Shown here one piece after another: positions 27,195 to 36,839 of a stretch of 64,000 nucleotides of DNA (positions are counted from its first letter, which is position 1; the number at the start of each line of letters is the position of its first letter). Location of the stretch: assembly GCA_023384675.1 (NCBI GenBank), contig JAHDVK010000001.1:1-64000 (forward strand), written 5' to 3'. The translations under genes were made by a program, and so were the position numbers. This DNA comes from Bryobacteraceae bacterium. Its GTDB lineage: Bacteria; Acidobacteriota; Terriglobia; Bryobacterales; Bryobacteraceae. Under the pieces are notes generated by a model. That model searched no databases and had not been told where the DNA came from. It saw only the letters and a program-made list of their open reading frames with translations.

Positions 27195-28799
27195 ATGAAT
27201 ACAACGGGAATCAACCCCAGCCGCTACGGACTGGAGCAGCAGGGGATCACGCAAGTTGCCAACGCCTGGTGGAACCTGGGCACGGCGCAACTCATGGAAA
27301 GAGCGTTGCAGAGCGATGAAGGGATACTTTCGGGCCGCGGCGCGCTCGTGGTGCGAACGGGCCAGTTCACCGGCCGTTCGCCCAAAGACAAGTTCATCGT
27401 CCGCGACGCCCTGACGGAAAACACGGTGGCCTGGGGCAGCGTCAATCAGCCCCTCGCTCCCGAGCAGTTCGCGGGCATCTGGAACCGGCTGCGGGGATTC
27501 CTGCAGGGGAAAGACGTCATCGTCGAAGATCTCTACGCGGGCGCCGACCCCGAGTTCCGCATGCCGATCCGCGTCATTGTGCAGCGCGCCTGGCACGGAC
27601 TGTTCGCGCGGCAACTCTTCATCCGGCCGCAGCGTCACGAACTCGAGGGACACAAACCCGAATTCACCCTGATCTTCGCGCCCGATTTCCAATGCGACCC
27701 CGAGTTGGACGGCACCCGCAGCGAGACCTGCATCGCCGTCGATTTCACGCGCCGCCTGGTGCTCATCATGGGCACCAGCTACGCCGGCGAGATGAAGAAA
27801 AGCGTTTTCACGATCCTCAACCACCTGCTGCCCGAGCGCGGTGTGATGCCCATGCACTGTTCGGCGAACATGGGCGACCACGGCCGCGTGGCACTGTTTT
27901 TCGGGCTTTCCGGCACCGGCAAAACCACTCTTTCCGCCGACCGGCACCGCCGCCTGATCGGCGACGACGAGCACGGCTGGAGCGACAAGGGCGTATTCAA
28001 TTTCGAGGGCGGCTGCTATGCGAAATGCATCCGGCTCTCGCGCGATGCCGAACCCCAGATCTACAACGCCATCCGCTATGGCGTGGTGCTGGAAAACGTG
28101 ATGATCGATCCCTGGACGCGGCGGCTCGACTTCAACAGCGAGGAGTACACCGAAAACACGCGCGCGGCTTACCGCGTGCATTTCATCGAGAATGCGCAGA
28201 TTCCGGGCGTGGGCGGCCATCCCTCGGATGTGGTCTTTCTCACGGCCGACGCCTTCGGCGTGCTGCCGCCCATCGCCCGCCTCACGCCAGAACAGGCGAT
28301 GTATCACTTTCTGAGCGGCTACACGGCGAAACTGGCCGGCACAGAACGTGGGCTCGGTAAGGAACCGCAGGCTGTGTTCAGCTCCTGTTTCGGCGAACCG
28401 TTCCTTCCCCGGCATCCGATGGAATACGCGCGTTTGTTGGGTGAGAAGCTGCGCCGCCACCATGCGCGCGTCTGGTTGATCAACACTGGCTGGACCGGCG
28501 GGCCGTACGGCGTTGGCCAGCGTATGAACCTCGCCTATACCCGCTCGATGGTGACGGCGGCGATTGAAGGCGAGTTGTCGGACGTGCCCACGCATCCGCA
28601 CCCGGTATTTCAGGTCCTGGTGCCTGAGTTCTGTCCCGGCGTGCCGAACGAAGTGCTGAATCCCCGCGGGCTGTGGGCCGATAAAACCGCCTATGACGAA
28701 GCGGCGCGCGACCTCGCCGGCCGTTTCCAGGACAATTTCGCGAAGAAGTTTGGAGAAGCGGCTCCGGATCTGGCCGGCGCGGGTCCGCGGCTGGGGTGA
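27195..28799 (+). CDS. pckA: ATP-dependent phosphoenolpyruvate carboxykinase
   Basis: PckA converts oxaloacetate and ATP to phosphoenolpyruvate and CO2, the entry step of gluconeogenesis. The 534-residue length is normal for the ATP type. The kinase-1 loop GLSGTGKTT (residues 237-245), the kinase-2/metal region GDDEHGW, the oxaloacetate-binding FTGRSPKDKF and FEGGCYAKCI are intact. The 3' end lies only 20 bases before the selenocysteine tRNA gene, so any promoter for that tRNA should be inside pckA or shared with it. Confidence 0.97.
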   Translation: MNTTGINPSRYGLEQQGITQVANAWWNLGTAQLMERALQSDEGILSGRGALVVRTGQFTGRSPKDKFIVRDALTENTVAWGSVNQPLAPEQFAGIWNRLRGFLQGKDVIVEDLYAGADPEFRMPIRVIVQRAWHGLFARQLFIRPQRHELEGHKPEFTLIFAPDFQCDPELDGTRSETCIAVDFTRRLVLIMGTSYAGEMKKSVFTILNHLLPERGVMPMHCSANMGDHGRVALFFGLSGTGKTTLSADRHRRLIGDDEHGWSDKGVFNFEGGCYAKCIRLSRDAEPQIYNAIRYGVVLENVMIDPWTRRLDFNSEEYTENTRAAYRVHFIENAQIPGVGGHPSDVVFLTADAFGVLPPIARLTPEQAMYHFLSGYTAKLAGTERGLGKEPQAVFSSCFGEPFLPRHPMEYARLLGEKLRRHHARVWLINTGWTGGPYGVGQRMNLAYTRSMVTAAIEGELSDVPTHPHPVFQVLVPEFCPGVPNEVLNPRGLWADKTAYDEAARDLAGRFQDNFAKKFGEAAPDLAGAGPRLG

Positions 28800-28819: not shown

Positions 28820-28915
28820 GGAAACTCATCCTGGCCGGTGCCGGGCCTGGTCTTCAAAACCAGTGGGCGTCGCTAAGCGTGCGCCGGTGGGTTCGACCCC
28901 CACGAGTTTCCGCCA
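28820..28915 (+). tRNA. selC: tRNA-Sec (anticodon UCA)
   Basis: This folds as a bacterial selenocysteine tRNA. The 8-bp acceptor stem is GGAAACTC paired with GAGTTTCC. The D arm has 6 bp (CCTGGC/GCCGGG) with a 4-base loop. The anticodon stem CTGGT/ACCAG encloses the loop CTTCAAA with anticodon TCA, which reads UGA. A long variable arm follows, and the T arm is GTGGG-TTCGACC-CCCAC. The 8+5 branch is the bacterial tRNA-Sec arrangement. The CCA end is encoded. It predicts SelA, SelB, SelD and at least one selenoprotein elsewhere; none was found in this window. Confidence 0.95.
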
Positions 28916-28927
28916 AATTGTCTGCCG

Positions 28928-29992
28928 ATGCGTTTCCTCCATACCTCGGACTGGCACATTGGCTTAAAGGCCGCCCACGCCGGCGCGGCCGGTGCACGCC
29001 TGCGCGCGGAACGTTTTGAAGCCGCGCGCCGCGTCGCCTCCATTGCCCGTGAAGAGGCCGTCGAGTTCGTCCTGATTGCCGGAGACGTGTTCGATGCCAG
29101 CGCGCCTGCCCCATCCGACATTCGCGAAACGGCCGCTTTGTTGAACGCCTTCCCAGCACCGGTTTACCTGATCCCTGGCAACCATGATCCGGATGTTCCC
29201 GGCGGCCCCTGGGAGCACCCTGCTTGGGGGGATTGCTCGAATGCGCGATGCCTGTTGAAACCAGAACCCATACGGCTAAACGGCGGCACGCTGTACCCAT
29301 GCCCGCTGCGTTCGCGCTGGCAGGGCGGGGATCCGCTGGCCTGGATCCCGGTGCGCGATGCCGGAGACGGAATTCGGATCGGCCTCGCGCACGGCGGCCT
29401 CGACACCTTCGGAGGGCCAATTGACGCCGGCGCGGCCGCGCGTCTCGATCTCGACTATCTGGCCCTCGGGGACTGGCACTCCGCGTCTGCCGATCTCGAC
29501 AAACAACCGCGGCAAGCCTATTCCGGCACTCCGGAACCCGACGCCTTCGACCAGCGCGATTCGGGCTTCGTACTCATTGTCGAGATTGCCGCGTCTGGCG
29601 CACCGCCGGTGATCCGCAAGCAGCGAGCCGCCCGGCTCGACTGGCGGCAGCGCACCATCACGTTGCGGCAGCAGGGCGATGCGCGCCGGCTGCGCGAAGA
29701 TGTGGAAGCTCAGGCATCGGCGGAGGCGCTGCTCGACTTGAGGATTTCAGGCGAATTGTACTCCGGCGATGAGCGTGAACTCGACGCGATCACCCAACTC
29801 ATTGAAGAGCGCTATTTCGCGGGCCGCCTGCGGCGTGGCACATTGTGGCCCGCCGGCACGGAGGCTGCACTGCCGCCCGGGGCGTTGAGCCTTGCGGAAC
29901 AAGCTCTGCGCGCACAGGCCGAAGGTGGTGACGCGGTGGCAGCGGAGGCGTTGCTGCTGCTCCGCCGGCTCGCCCTGGAGACGGGTGCATGA
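28928..29992 (+). CDS. SbcD/Mre11-like DNA repair metallophosphoesterase
   Basis: A 354-residue nuclease-type phosphoesterase. The metal motifs are HTSDWHIG (residues 5-12), GDVFD, GNHDPD, AHGG and a late LGDWHSA in place of the GHIH of classical SbcD, followed by the family phrase YSGTPEPDAF. It is expected to pair with the ATPase encoded next, whose ATG overlaps its stop (ATGA). The gene starts 12 bases after the selC CCA. Function in DNA end processing is inferred from the family and the partner. Confidence 0.87.
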   Translation: MRFLHTSDWHIGLKAAHAGAAGARLRAERFEAARRVASIAREEAVEFVLIAGDVFDASAPAPSDIRETAALLNAFPAPVYLIPGNHDPDVPGGPWEHPAWGDCSNARCLLKPEPIRLNGGTLYPCPLRSRWQGGDPLAWIPVRDAGDGIRIGLAHGGLDTFGGPIDAGAAARLDLDYLALGDWHSASADLDKQPRQAYSGTPEPDAFDQRDSGFVLIVEIAASGAPPVIRKQRAARLDWRQRTITLRQQGDARRLREDVEAQASAEALLDLRISGELYSGDERELDAITQLIEERYFAGRLRRGTLWPAGTEAALPPGALSLAEQALRAQAEGGDAVAAEALLLLRRLALETGA

Positions 29993-33240: not shown

Positions 33241-34911
33241 TTAAGGCCCGCCCGGCCAGGGCGTTACTTTCAACGTCACCTCGTGGAAGCCATCCGGTTC
33301 CACCTTCACCTGTTCGGCGGACTTCGCCAACTCCGCGACGAACGCCTCGTCGGAGAGCAGATCGTAGCGGCTCACCTGATTGAGAAGCCACACGTAATAT
33401 TCGGCCGGGCGGATGCCGCGAAGCTCCGCCGTGCGGCCGCCCAGGCTGAACATCATCAGGAACGGCGGCCGCCGCCACTCCGGTTTCACCGGCAGCAGCA
33501 CCAGCACTGGCTGGCGCTGCCCGGACATTGAGGCTTCGCCCTCAACCCGGATGTTCAGCGCCCCGCCGTCGGCGCGGTACACGATGCTCAAATCGGGCAT
33601 CCCTTCGCGGACGTCGATCGGCTTACCCAGCAGTTCTTCCTCACCAACCCGCACCGAGGCGAGATAAGTGCCGTATTGAAATCCGGAAAGCTCATAACGC
33701 CCCGGCTGCACGTCGTCAAGCGAAAACGTGCCGTCTTCGCGAGTCTCGATGGAGTAAGAACGCCCCCCGCCATCACGCGCCAGGGGGTTCAGGAAGAGCC
33801 GCATCGATTGACGGTGGTCCATGCCTTCCACAGGCACAATGTCCGTCGGACCGCCCTCGGGCATGGGCGGCAGGGGGATGTCCACCACGCCCTCCAAGCG
33901 AACGCCGCGGGCCATGCGCAACTCGAGATCGAGCAAATCGGCGTCGGTCACCTTGATGTCCAGCGCGGCGGTGCGCTGCTGGTTGCCGTCGAACTGATGC
34001 GCGGTCAGTGTGTACTCGCCCGGCGGCACGAGCCTCGCCTCGAAGCCTTCCGCGCCGCGTTGCTGAATGCTGACCCCGAGCCCGCCGCTGTCGCCGCTCT
34101 TTGGCCGGACGTGCAAGCCGGCGTTGGCCACGGGCTGGCCTTTCACGTCCAGCACGCGTCCGCGCAGTGTGTAGACCTTCGAGGAGCGCAACTGCAACTT
34201 GAGGTCGGCGATGGGCTCGCCGGGCTTCAACACCACCTCGCGCGCCTCGGCTGCATCGAGAGCGCTCGGATAATACGTGGTGACGTACATCTGTTCGGGA
34301 GCCTTCGTGGATACGAGAGGCGCAAAGCTCCGCGCGCTGAGAACCACCGCCCCGATTTGCGCCGTGGCGATGCGAAACCGGCCAAGGTCGTCGGTCGTCG
34401 TTGCCCCCATTCCAGCGTAGAGGACATCCTCGCCGCTCGACCGCCGCGCGAGCATCTGCACTTGCACGCCTTCCACGGGCTCGCCGTCCTCGTCGACCAC
34501 GATGCCGCTGAGGATCGAAGGCCGGGCCAGCGTCAGATCCTCCGCGATTGCACGCTGACCGGCGGCCAGGCGAACCGTCACTCCGGAGCCCGAAAAATAA
34601 CCCGTACGCCGGGCCTGCACCAGATATGCGCCCTCGGGCAGGTTCTCAAAGCGGTAGCGACCGTTCTCATCGGTCAACGTGGCCGCCTCCGGGGTGGGCG
34701 GGGCCGGTTGCCCGGGAATATTCACACCGCCGGCGAGCCCCCCCGAGATCTGCATGCCGCCCGCCGCCTGCGACGGGTCCTGGCGGGTCAAGATGACCTG
34801 CGCGCGCTCCACCGGCGCGCCGGTGTAGCGATTGACTACCGAACCCGCGATCACGCCTGGTTGCGCCTGCAGGAGGCCGCAACCCAGCAGCAAGAGAATG
34901 GATATGCGCAT
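33241..34911 (-). CDS. secreted carboxypeptidase-regulatory-like repeat protein
   Basis: A 556-residue exported protein (signal MRISILLLLGCGLLQA-Q). It contains several immunoglobulin-like carboxypeptidase-regulatory-type units, visible as repeated GxVxxxxTGxPxxxAxV, YRFENLPEGAYLVQARRTGY and FSLDDVQPGRYEL motifs. No TonB-receptor barrel follows. Such proteins are expanded in Solibacter-type genomes and probably act as cell-surface or periplasmic binding scaffolds. It is a tandem paralogue of the gene at 34956-36701, which lies 44 bases upstream on the same strand. Confidence 0.85.
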   Translation of the reverse strand: MRISILLLLGCGLLQAQPGVIAGSVVNRYTGAPVERAQVILTRQDPSQAAGGMQISGGLAGGVNIPGQPAPPTPEAATLTDENGRYRFENLPEGAYLVQARRTGYFSGSGVTVRLAAGQRAIAEDLTLARPSILSGIVVDEDGEPVEGVQVQMLARRSSGEDVLYAGMGATTTDDLGRFRIATAQIGAVVLSARSFAPLVSTKAPEQMYVTTYYPSALDAAEAREVVLKPGEPIADLKLQLRSSKVYTLRGRVLDVKGQPVANAGLHVRPKSGDSGGLGVSIQQRGAEGFEARLVPPGEYTLTAHQFDGNQQRTAALDIKVTDADLLDLELRMARGVRLEGVVDIPLPPMPEGGPTDIVPVEGMDHRQSMRLFLNPLARDGGGRSYSIETREDGTFSLDDVQPGRYELSGFQYGTYLASVRVGEEELLGKPIDVREGMPDLSIVYRADGGALNIRVEGEASMSGQRQPVLVLLPVKPEWRRPPFLMMFSLGGRTAELRGIRPAEYYVWLLNQVSRYDLLSDEAFVAELAKSAEQVKVEPDGFHEVTLKVTPWPGGP

Positions 34912-34955
34912 GAATCCTTCTCTTTCAGGGTAGCGGGTTCCGCGGCGCCCCGGCC

Positions 34956-36701
34956 TTAGTAGTCCAACGGCCAGGTCTCCAGCCGCGCCTTCGCCGAAGC
35001 GGTCTGCCCCGCATCGGCGCGGACCTTCACCGCGCGCTCCATCACCAGTTGCAGGAAGTCCGGGTCGCTCATCTCGTTGAGATCGGCGTCATCGAACACC
35101 CACAGCAGATACTCGCCCGGCCGCAGGTTGTCGAAGCTGAATGAACCGGTTTCGTCAACCTCGACTTGTTTGGGCTGAATGGCGGCCCGCAGTTCTGCGT
35201 CCGCGGGCAAAAGCACCGCCAGCGGCGGCGTTACCGGCTTCGCATCCGGCAGTTCCACCGTCCCCGTGACCGACGCGCCGTCTGTCCGGTAAATCAACTG
35301 CACCGGCCCCGGCACGCCGCCTGTCAAGTCGATCTCCTTGCTGAAATAATCCTGGCCGCCCAACATCACCTGCGCGAGATACACGCCCTGCGCGTTCGCG
35401 GGAGCCACGCGGTATTTGCCCGGAGTCACTCCCTGTATCGTGAAGCTCCCGTCATCGGACGGCACACCAGGACGTGTGCCCAGCATAAGCATGCCGGTTT
35501 CGGCCGGCAGCAGCGTCACGCGTAAGCTTCGCGATGAAACGGCCGCCGCAGGCTGTTGACCCTGGATTTCCACGCGGCCCGTCAGTGTCAAACCCTCGCT
35601 CACCTGGATCACCAGCCCCTCGAGATCCGCATTCCCGACGCTCGCGACCGCCGAGCCCGCCGCCTGGTTCTGCGGACCGCCCGCCAGCCGCCGTACCATC
35701 ACGCGGTAGTCCCCCGGTGGCAGGTTTGCCACATCGAATGTGCCGTCCTGCCGGGCCCCGCCCGCGAAGCCCGCCGGCCCCGCCCCGGCCTGATCCAAGC
35801 GTGTGGCGGTCACGATAAACCGCTGCATCGGCTCGCCGGTCGCATCGAGCGCCCTCCCCGTAATCCGGAAGACCTCTGTCTTCCTAAGCGTGATGTCGAG
35901 ATTTGTCAGTTCCGTGCCCGGTTTCACATCGATCGGCAGCGCCTGGCTGGGATCGAGCACGCCGGGATAATACATAGCCACATAGCCGCGCGCGGGCCCG
36001 GCGGGTGTTTGGCCGCTCACTCGCGGCGCGCCCCGGCGCGCGCCCGGCGGCGTAATCTGTAGCAGCACCTTGCCTGGCTGCACGCCCGCGATCCTGAACT
36101 CGCCCAGATCGTTCGTCGCAGTACCCCGCATTCCAATCCAATTCATTAGTCCGCGCTGCATGCGCCGGTTCATCACCTGGATCTGCGCTCCCTGCACTGG
36201 CTCGCCTTCCTCATCCAGCACGCGCCCCGCCAGCACGCCCTGCGGCAGCATCGCGTAATTCAACCCGCTCACGCGCCCGCCTTCCCGGACACTAACGGTC
36301 GCGGCCGAACCAGACCGGCGCGCCGCGATGAAACCCGTCCGGCTCGACACCACCCGGTACTCGCCCGGGGGCACGGCTTCGAAGCGGAAACGGCCCTGGT
36401 CATCCGTCAACACAGCCAATCCGCCGCCCCCTCCGCCCATGATCATGCCGAGCGCCTGCCCGCGCCCGCCCCCCGGTCCCATGCCGCCCCCCGGACCGCC
36501 CATTCCCGCCGCATCGCGCCCACCGCCCGGTCCACCCATCACCGTCGCCGGGGCCAGTCGCACCTCCGCCCGCCGCAGCGGTTCGCCCGTCAACTGGTTC
36601 ATCACCGCTCCTTCCACCACACCCGGACGGGCGTCCTGCGCTATCGCCCACGCCGGCCAAACCAGCAAGCCTGCCATCAGCGCCGTCATTTCGTATCGCA
36701 T
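34956..36701 (-). CDS. secreted carboxypeptidase-regulatory-like repeat protein with Gly-rich insert
   Basis: A 581-residue paralogue of the downstream protein. The signal peptide is best from the ATG at 36701 (MRYEMTALMAGLLVWPAWAIA-Q is just over that window) or 36689. The first repeat (VVEGAVMNQLTGEPLRRAEV) is followed by a Gly/Met-rich, low-complexity insert (about residues 50-90, MGGPGGG-type), then repeats with YRVVSSRTGFIAARR and FSFDNLRPGEYLLW. The Gly-rich insert is absent from the paralogue and could be slippage-generated. Function is unknown. Confidence 0.83.
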   Translation of the reverse strand: MRYEMTALMAGLLVWPAWAIAQDARPGVVEGAVMNQLTGEPLRRAEVRLAPATVMGGPGGGRDAAGMGGPGGGMGPGGGRGQALGMIMGGGGGGLAVLTDDQGRFRFEAVPPGEYRVVSSRTGFIAARRSGSAATVSVREGGRVSGLNYAMLPQGVLAGRVLDEEGEPVQGAQIQVMNRRMQRGLMNWIGMRGTATNDLGEFRIAGVQPGKVLLQITPPGARRGAPRVSGQTPAGPARGYVAMYYPGVLDPSQALPIDVKPGTELTNLDITLRKTEVFRITGRALDATGEPMQRFIVTATRLDQAGAGPAGFAGGARQDGTFDVANLPPGDYRVMVRRLAGGPQNQAAGSAVASVGNADLEGLVIQVSEGLTLTGRVEIQGQQPAAAVSSRSLRVTLLPAETGMLMLGTRPGVPSDDGSFTIQGVTPGKYRVAPANAQGVYLAQVMLGGQDYFSKEIDLTGGVPGPVQLIYRTDGASVTGTVELPDAKPVTPPLAVLLPADAELRAAIQPKQVEVDETGSFSFDNLRPGEYLLWVFDDADLNEMSDPDFLQLVMERAVKVRADAGQTASAKARLETWPLDY

Positions 36702-36839
36702 GCCCACACTACTCCTGTTCACTATTGTCAGACGAATGCCCGCGCCAAATGGTTGACATCGCCACGGCATGCCCCTGCACAAAGGACGAATCTCCCACCC
36801 GTGCTGTTACTCCCGGTGCTACGATGCCCACAAGGAACC

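Follow-up and report, generated by a model that had tools for sequence, protein, structure and literature searches.

The sequence at positions 28820-28915 of the window (the whole stretch of DNA analysed, 64,000 nucleotides) is almost certainly selC, the tRNA gene of the standard bacterial selenocysteine-decoding system. ARAGORN predicts just one tRNA gene across the 64-kb window: tRNA-SeC(tca), on the forward strand at 28820-28915. The single Rfam match in the window at the gathering threshold is RF01852 (tRNA-Sec), with 74.7 bits (E 1.7e-13; gathering cut-off 47 bits), and its alignment at 28820-28915 spans the model end to end. The first-pass annotation had placed a tRNA-Sec gene in this interval on the basis of a UCA anticodon, an 8-bp acceptor stem, a 6-bp D stem, a long variable arm and an encoded CCA. 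ARAGORN and Rfam return its coordinates exactly, and every one of these elements is present in the fold and the pair list. The features of the gene are as follows.

28820..28915, + strand: selC, selenocysteine tRNA gene with encoded CCA (ARAGORN tRNA-SeC(tca); RF01852, 74.7 bits)
28820..28827, + strand: acceptor stem 5' side, 8 bp, paired with 28904-28911 (fold, pair list)
28830..28845, + strand: D arm, 6-bp stem 28830-28835/28840-28845, 4-nt loop (fold, pair list)
28847..28863, + strand: anticodon arm, 5-bp stem, loop CUUCAAA, anticodon UCA at 28854-28856 (ARAGORN, fold, pair list)
28866..28885, + strand: long variable arm, 8-bp stem with one bulge (fold)
28887..28903, + strand: T arm, 5-bp stem, 7-nt loop (fold)
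28904..28911, + strand: acceptor stem 3' side (fold, pair list)
28912..28915, + strand: discriminator G73 (28912) and encoded CCA (28913-28915) (sequence)

The selC cloverleaf is recovered by free, unconstrained folding at -45.5 kcal/mol, with a z-score of -2.59 against 200 shuffled sequences, one of which folds equally well. The acceptor and T stems add up to 13 bp in the 8+5 arrangement with standard pairs throughout the pair list, and one of the six D-stem pairs is U-G. Upstream, selC is flanked by a phosphoenolpyruvate carboxykinase gene (27195-28799; NF006820, 827.8 bits, cut-off 636). Its other neighbour is an SbcD-like gene (28928-29992) that scores 57.1 bits with TIGR00619, under the cut-off of 77.65. 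Elsewhere in the window, two adjacent genes for large proteins at 33241-36782 on the reverse strand resemble, by eye, exported carboxypeptidase-regulatory-like proteins.

A tRNA-Sec gene had been taken to predict selA, selB and selD elsewhere, and all three are in the genome (5,734,819 bases in 60 contigs, 97.4% complete, 0.9% contamination), each above its curated cut-off.

selA: contig C34, 25152-26444; profile match 493 bits, curated cut-off 267.9
selB: contig C13, 31059-32879; profile match 358 bits, curated cut-off 242.25
selD: contig C42, 114913-115809; profile match 350.9 bits, curated cut-off 125 (TIGR00476 passed)

In Pfam, SelA contains a 401-bit SelA domain and the N-terminal domain, and SelB contains the GTPase, beta-barrel and winged-helix domains. 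The gene 3' of selD resembles pyrF by eye, and selC, selA, selB and selD lie on four different contigs. In the bacterial system, seryl-tRNA synthetase loads tRNA-Sec with serine, and SelA turns the Ser-tRNA into Sec-tRNA using the selenophosphate donor made by SelD. SelB then delivers Sec-tRNA to UGA codons that have a downstream mRNA hairpin (bSECIS). The selC tRNA described here would follow the same route of serine charging, conversion by SelA and SelD and delivery to UGA by SelB. We infer its charging, the decoding of UGA as selenocysteine and the redox function of the products from gene content and UGA position.

Which proteins would this system serve? UGA-containing genes, likewise anticipated in the first-pass annotation, were found for SelD, two peroxiredoxins, a Prx-like protein and an AhpD-like protein. 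SelD contains one in-frame TGA at its catalytic position (GUASK within MSKKLTAHVKAAGUASKLGPK). Three of the 22 AhpC-TSA matches in the genome carry one TGA each, always at the catalytic position, and one of the five CMD matches, the AhpD-like protein with its CPFU motif, holds a TGA.

PrxA, peroxiredoxin (TxxU): contig C8, 124798; motif FTGGUTKE
PrxB, peroxiredoxin (TxxU, PrxQ-like): contig C36, 14605-14964, - strand; motif PADDTPGUTAQ
Prx-like thiol oxidoreductase (UxxC): contig C8, 104240-104635, - strand; motif SADWUPWCK
AhpD-like protein (CxxU): contig C29, 1142; motif NQCPFULKSH; TIGR01926, 93.6 bits (cut-off 81.8)

The three Prx-type UGA proteins pass Pfam AhpC-TSA and fall below every NCBIfam cut-off. 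The start of PrxA resembles a signal peptide by eye, and the Prx-like UxxC candidate has a C-terminal DsbD_N domain (PF11412, 32.7 bits, cut-off 25). In the same-family genome G187, a protein alignable to PrxB along its length has cysteine at the selenocysteine position. PrxB (TPGUTAQLGGLRD) has glycine where its cysteine-containing relative in the family member G289 has a second cysteine (TPGCTKEACEFRD), and PrxB may work as a 1-Sec peroxiredoxin. These genes are a consistent example of Sec/Cys exchange inside one bacterial family, a pattern that is already known. The five UGA genes, which would encode proteins of 325, 177, 150, 355 and 197 residues, are a lower bound because the families covered were few: SelD, AhpC-TSA, CMD, thioredoxin and Fdh-alpha. 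Annotation pipelines that read UGA as a stop would be expected to call these five genes truncated or mis-started.

The catalytic column of SelD was followed in the best 80 of 580 related loci and the genome's own gene, 81 sequences in all, and could be placed in 80 of them, the own gene included. The column reads TGA in 71 and TGC in nine, with no other codon. The closest named relative among the best 80 is a metagenome-assembled genome (MAG) of Candidatus Solibacter usitatus (76% identity, UGA form), and the next are acidobacterial and Bryobacterales MAGs, mostly with UGA and some with cysteine. These SelD relatives are the ground on which the organism is placed among the acidobacteria. Across 68 distinct UGA forms, 384 of the 476 cells of the stem that follows the UGA are paired; the nine cysteine forms have 30 paired cells out of 63. 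This is a comparison that leans towards pairing in the own sequence, on which the stem was defined, and that draws on related, protein-coding sequences with few cysteine forms. Controls in which the partner strand was slid are paired in at most 49.8% of cells in the UGA forms and at most 39.7% in the cysteine forms. At the inner end of the stem, 26 of the 68 UGA forms have an A-U pair and 35 a G-C pair. Such pairing among relatives is support, not proof, for a putative SECIS element in selD.

The single-sequence evidence for SECIS elements at the five UGA sites is weak. The hairpin of the own selD, taken alone, has a z-score of -0.46, and 56 of 200 shuffled sequences fold as well. A simple bSECIS score, whose loop rule is in part a published one (PMC1088965), is equalled or exceeded by 10% of null positions for SelD, 73% for PrxA, 60% for PrxB, 23% for the Prx-like protein and 10% for the AhpD-like protein; the null set was 3,781 positions drawn from nine ORFs of the window. 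Folding energies separate the five sites from the coding background no better than this score, and PrxB, examined as a single sequence, has no convincing hairpin after its UGA.

Across the phylum the selenocysteine trait is widespread, and at lower ranks its distribution is patchy. Among 396 sampled Acidobacteriota genomes, tRNA-Sec is found in 238 (E 1e-9) and selD in 261 (E 1e-30); both are present in 226, the tRNA only in 12, selD only in 35 and neither in 123. Several of the selD-only genomes have TGA in SelD, so that some tRNA-Sec genes are probably missed through assembly gaps or the threshold. The other two sampled family members, G187 and G289, have neither a tRNA-Sec match (E 1e-9) nor a selD match (E 1e-30), and with 238 of 396 genomes positive, this distribution fits the earlier description of the trait as patchy among Acidobacteria. 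Two genomes of the same class, G147 and G376, listed as 99-100% complete, have a tRNA-Sec match without a selD match at E 1e-30, and an orphan selC is possible in both. Selenocysteine use in Acidobacteriota is published: for Occallatibacter riparius, the deep-Sep paper (PMC12013277) lists three selenoprotein genes as known. A literature search pairing Solibacter usitatus with selenoprotein found no paper, and the main text of PMC5029168 mentions none of Acidobacteria, Solibacter and AhpD.

Could the structure programs have mistaken a tRNA-Ser, or some other class II tRNA, for tRNA-Sec at the selC locus? The tRNA-Ser and tRNA-Leu genes of the genome reach 43.6-46.9 bits on the tRNA-Sec model, barely below its cut-off. 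In the whole-genome RF01852 search, however, 14 places score at E 0.001 or better and just selC exceeds the cut-off. The best score away from it is 46.9 bits for a tRNA-Leu, and the runners-up identified by ARAGORN, seven in all, also include tRNA-Ser genes at 45.9, 45.3 and 43.6 bits and tRNA-Gly, tRNA-Cys and tRNA-Trp genes; the six further places are all weaker. A model preference for tRNA-Ser, which the first-pass annotation had named as one of two results that would speak against its assignment, was looked for, and the model favours selC with 74.7 bits against at most 46.9; the other such result, a genome lacking selA, selB and selD, is contradicted by the presence of all three. The UCA anticodon, the 8/5 arrangement of the acceptor and T stems and the 6-bp D stem argue in the same direction, and the genome holds separate tRNA-Ser genes (anticodons tga, gct and cga seen). 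The probability that selC is such a misread tRNA is negligible. A different objection would explain the UGA codons as errors of sequencing or as genuine stops of pseudogenes, the tRNA having some other role. In favour of it, for four of the five UGAs the stem that follows was assessed in a single sequence, where it does not reach significance. Against this objection stand the UGA at the catalytic cysteine in all three TGA-bearing Prx genes of this genome and the SelD column, which is exclusively TGA or TGC in the 80 placed sequences. Further evidence comes from 14 relatives, two from the same family and 12 from the same class. Four of these have a tRNA-Sec match and ten lack one, and together the 14 yield 183 AhpC-TSA matches. 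Among the matches listed, ten carry a TGA, five in G210 and five in G257, both tRNA-Sec-positive, and all ten have it at the catalytic site; in five of them, all Prx-type, the active site reads UT (four TxxU, one SxxU), and the other five are of the UxxC or UGC type. No TGA occurs among the AhpC-TSA matches listed for the ten relatives without a tRNA-Sec or selD match. The tRNA-Sec-positive G084 and G394 also lack a TGA among their listed matches, and one listed match of G084 has a TAG. Errors or pseudogene stops are an extremely unlikely explanation of the five UGAs.

A third reading accepts selC as a tRNA-Sec gene and holds it to be decayed or orphaned, with the selenocysteine system out of use. 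The dispersal of the four parts over four contigs would suit such decay, as would the absence of both a tRNA-Sec and a selD match from the other two family members sampled. The 12 of 238 tRNA-positive phylum genomes without a selD match at E 1e-30 indicate that orphans or assembly gaps exist. The matches to selA, selB and selD are nevertheless full-length and above cut-off, and UGA is retained at the catalytic site in five genes, and a disused system is very unlikely here.

The first-pass annotation had also suggested a UGA-containing formate dehydrogenase, and this part of its prediction failed: none of the 13 TIGR01591 (Fdh-alpha) matches in the genome holds any stop or rises above the cut-off, and formate dehydrogenase was rejected as a selenoprotein candidate with a top match of 459.6 bits against 666.25 (C41:242060). 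That gene, at 242060-244219 on the + strand of the window's own contig, resembles by eye a periplasmic nitrate reductase NapA with cysteine. Two molybdopterin oxidoreductase genes, C17:216562 and C5:58196, are 820-codon frames near contig ends; their DNA is 71% identical over 2.6 kb, which points to paralogues rather than an assembly duplicate. The selenouridine synthase SelU (TIGR03167) reaches just 23.4 bits in the genome, over profile positions 5-28 and with a cut-off of 219.75. Thioredoxin (PF00085) has nine matches in the genome, eight above the cut-off, and none contains a stop. Within the window, 349 TGAs have 30 open codons on each side, and the best 25 show no redox motif in a scan that relies on codon usage alone and is insensitive.

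What, then, is the selenocysteine system kept for? Its products in this genome would be SelD itself and four thiol-redox proteins. We tentatively propose, at somewhat less than an even chance, that peroxide and thiol redox defence is the only role for which the system is retained, through SelD, the two peroxiredoxins, the Prx-like/DsbD_N fusion and the AhpD-like peroxidase-related protein, with no use in a Sec-formate dehydrogenase or in selenouridine, and that the family relatives without the system have cysteine versions.

Compared with known systems, selC shares with bacterial tRNA-Sec (RF01852) the UCA anticodon, the 8/5 acceptor and T stems, the 6-bp D stem with its 4-nt loop, the long variable arm, G73 and a full-length match, with no notable difference. 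The Secmarker paper (PMC5330540) lists matching features for bacterial tRNA-Sec, and the 8/5 form found here differs from the unusual 7/5 tRNA-Sec that it also describes. All four parts of the bacterial Sec-decoding trait (SelA, SelB, SelC and SelD) are present above curated cut-offs, as in that trait, whereas the genes here are scattered over four contigs and neither a Sec-formate dehydrogenase nor a selenouridine synthase was found. According to PMC1794560, selenocysteine users without FdhA all possess Sec-SelD and most also have the selenouridine trait; the genome described here agrees with them in its Sec-SelD and differs in the absence of the selenouridine trait. The Prx-like protein adds a C-terminal DsbD_N domain to the Prx-like selenoprotein family with its UxxC motif. 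The motifs and domains of SelD (UxxK), Prx (TxxU), Prx-like (UxxC) and AhpD-like (CxxU) agree with table 1 of PMC13188914, and the last three had been described by 2005 (PMC1088965). The identification of selC and the prediction drawn from it are right, and the system to which selC belongs is an ordinary one of a known kind.
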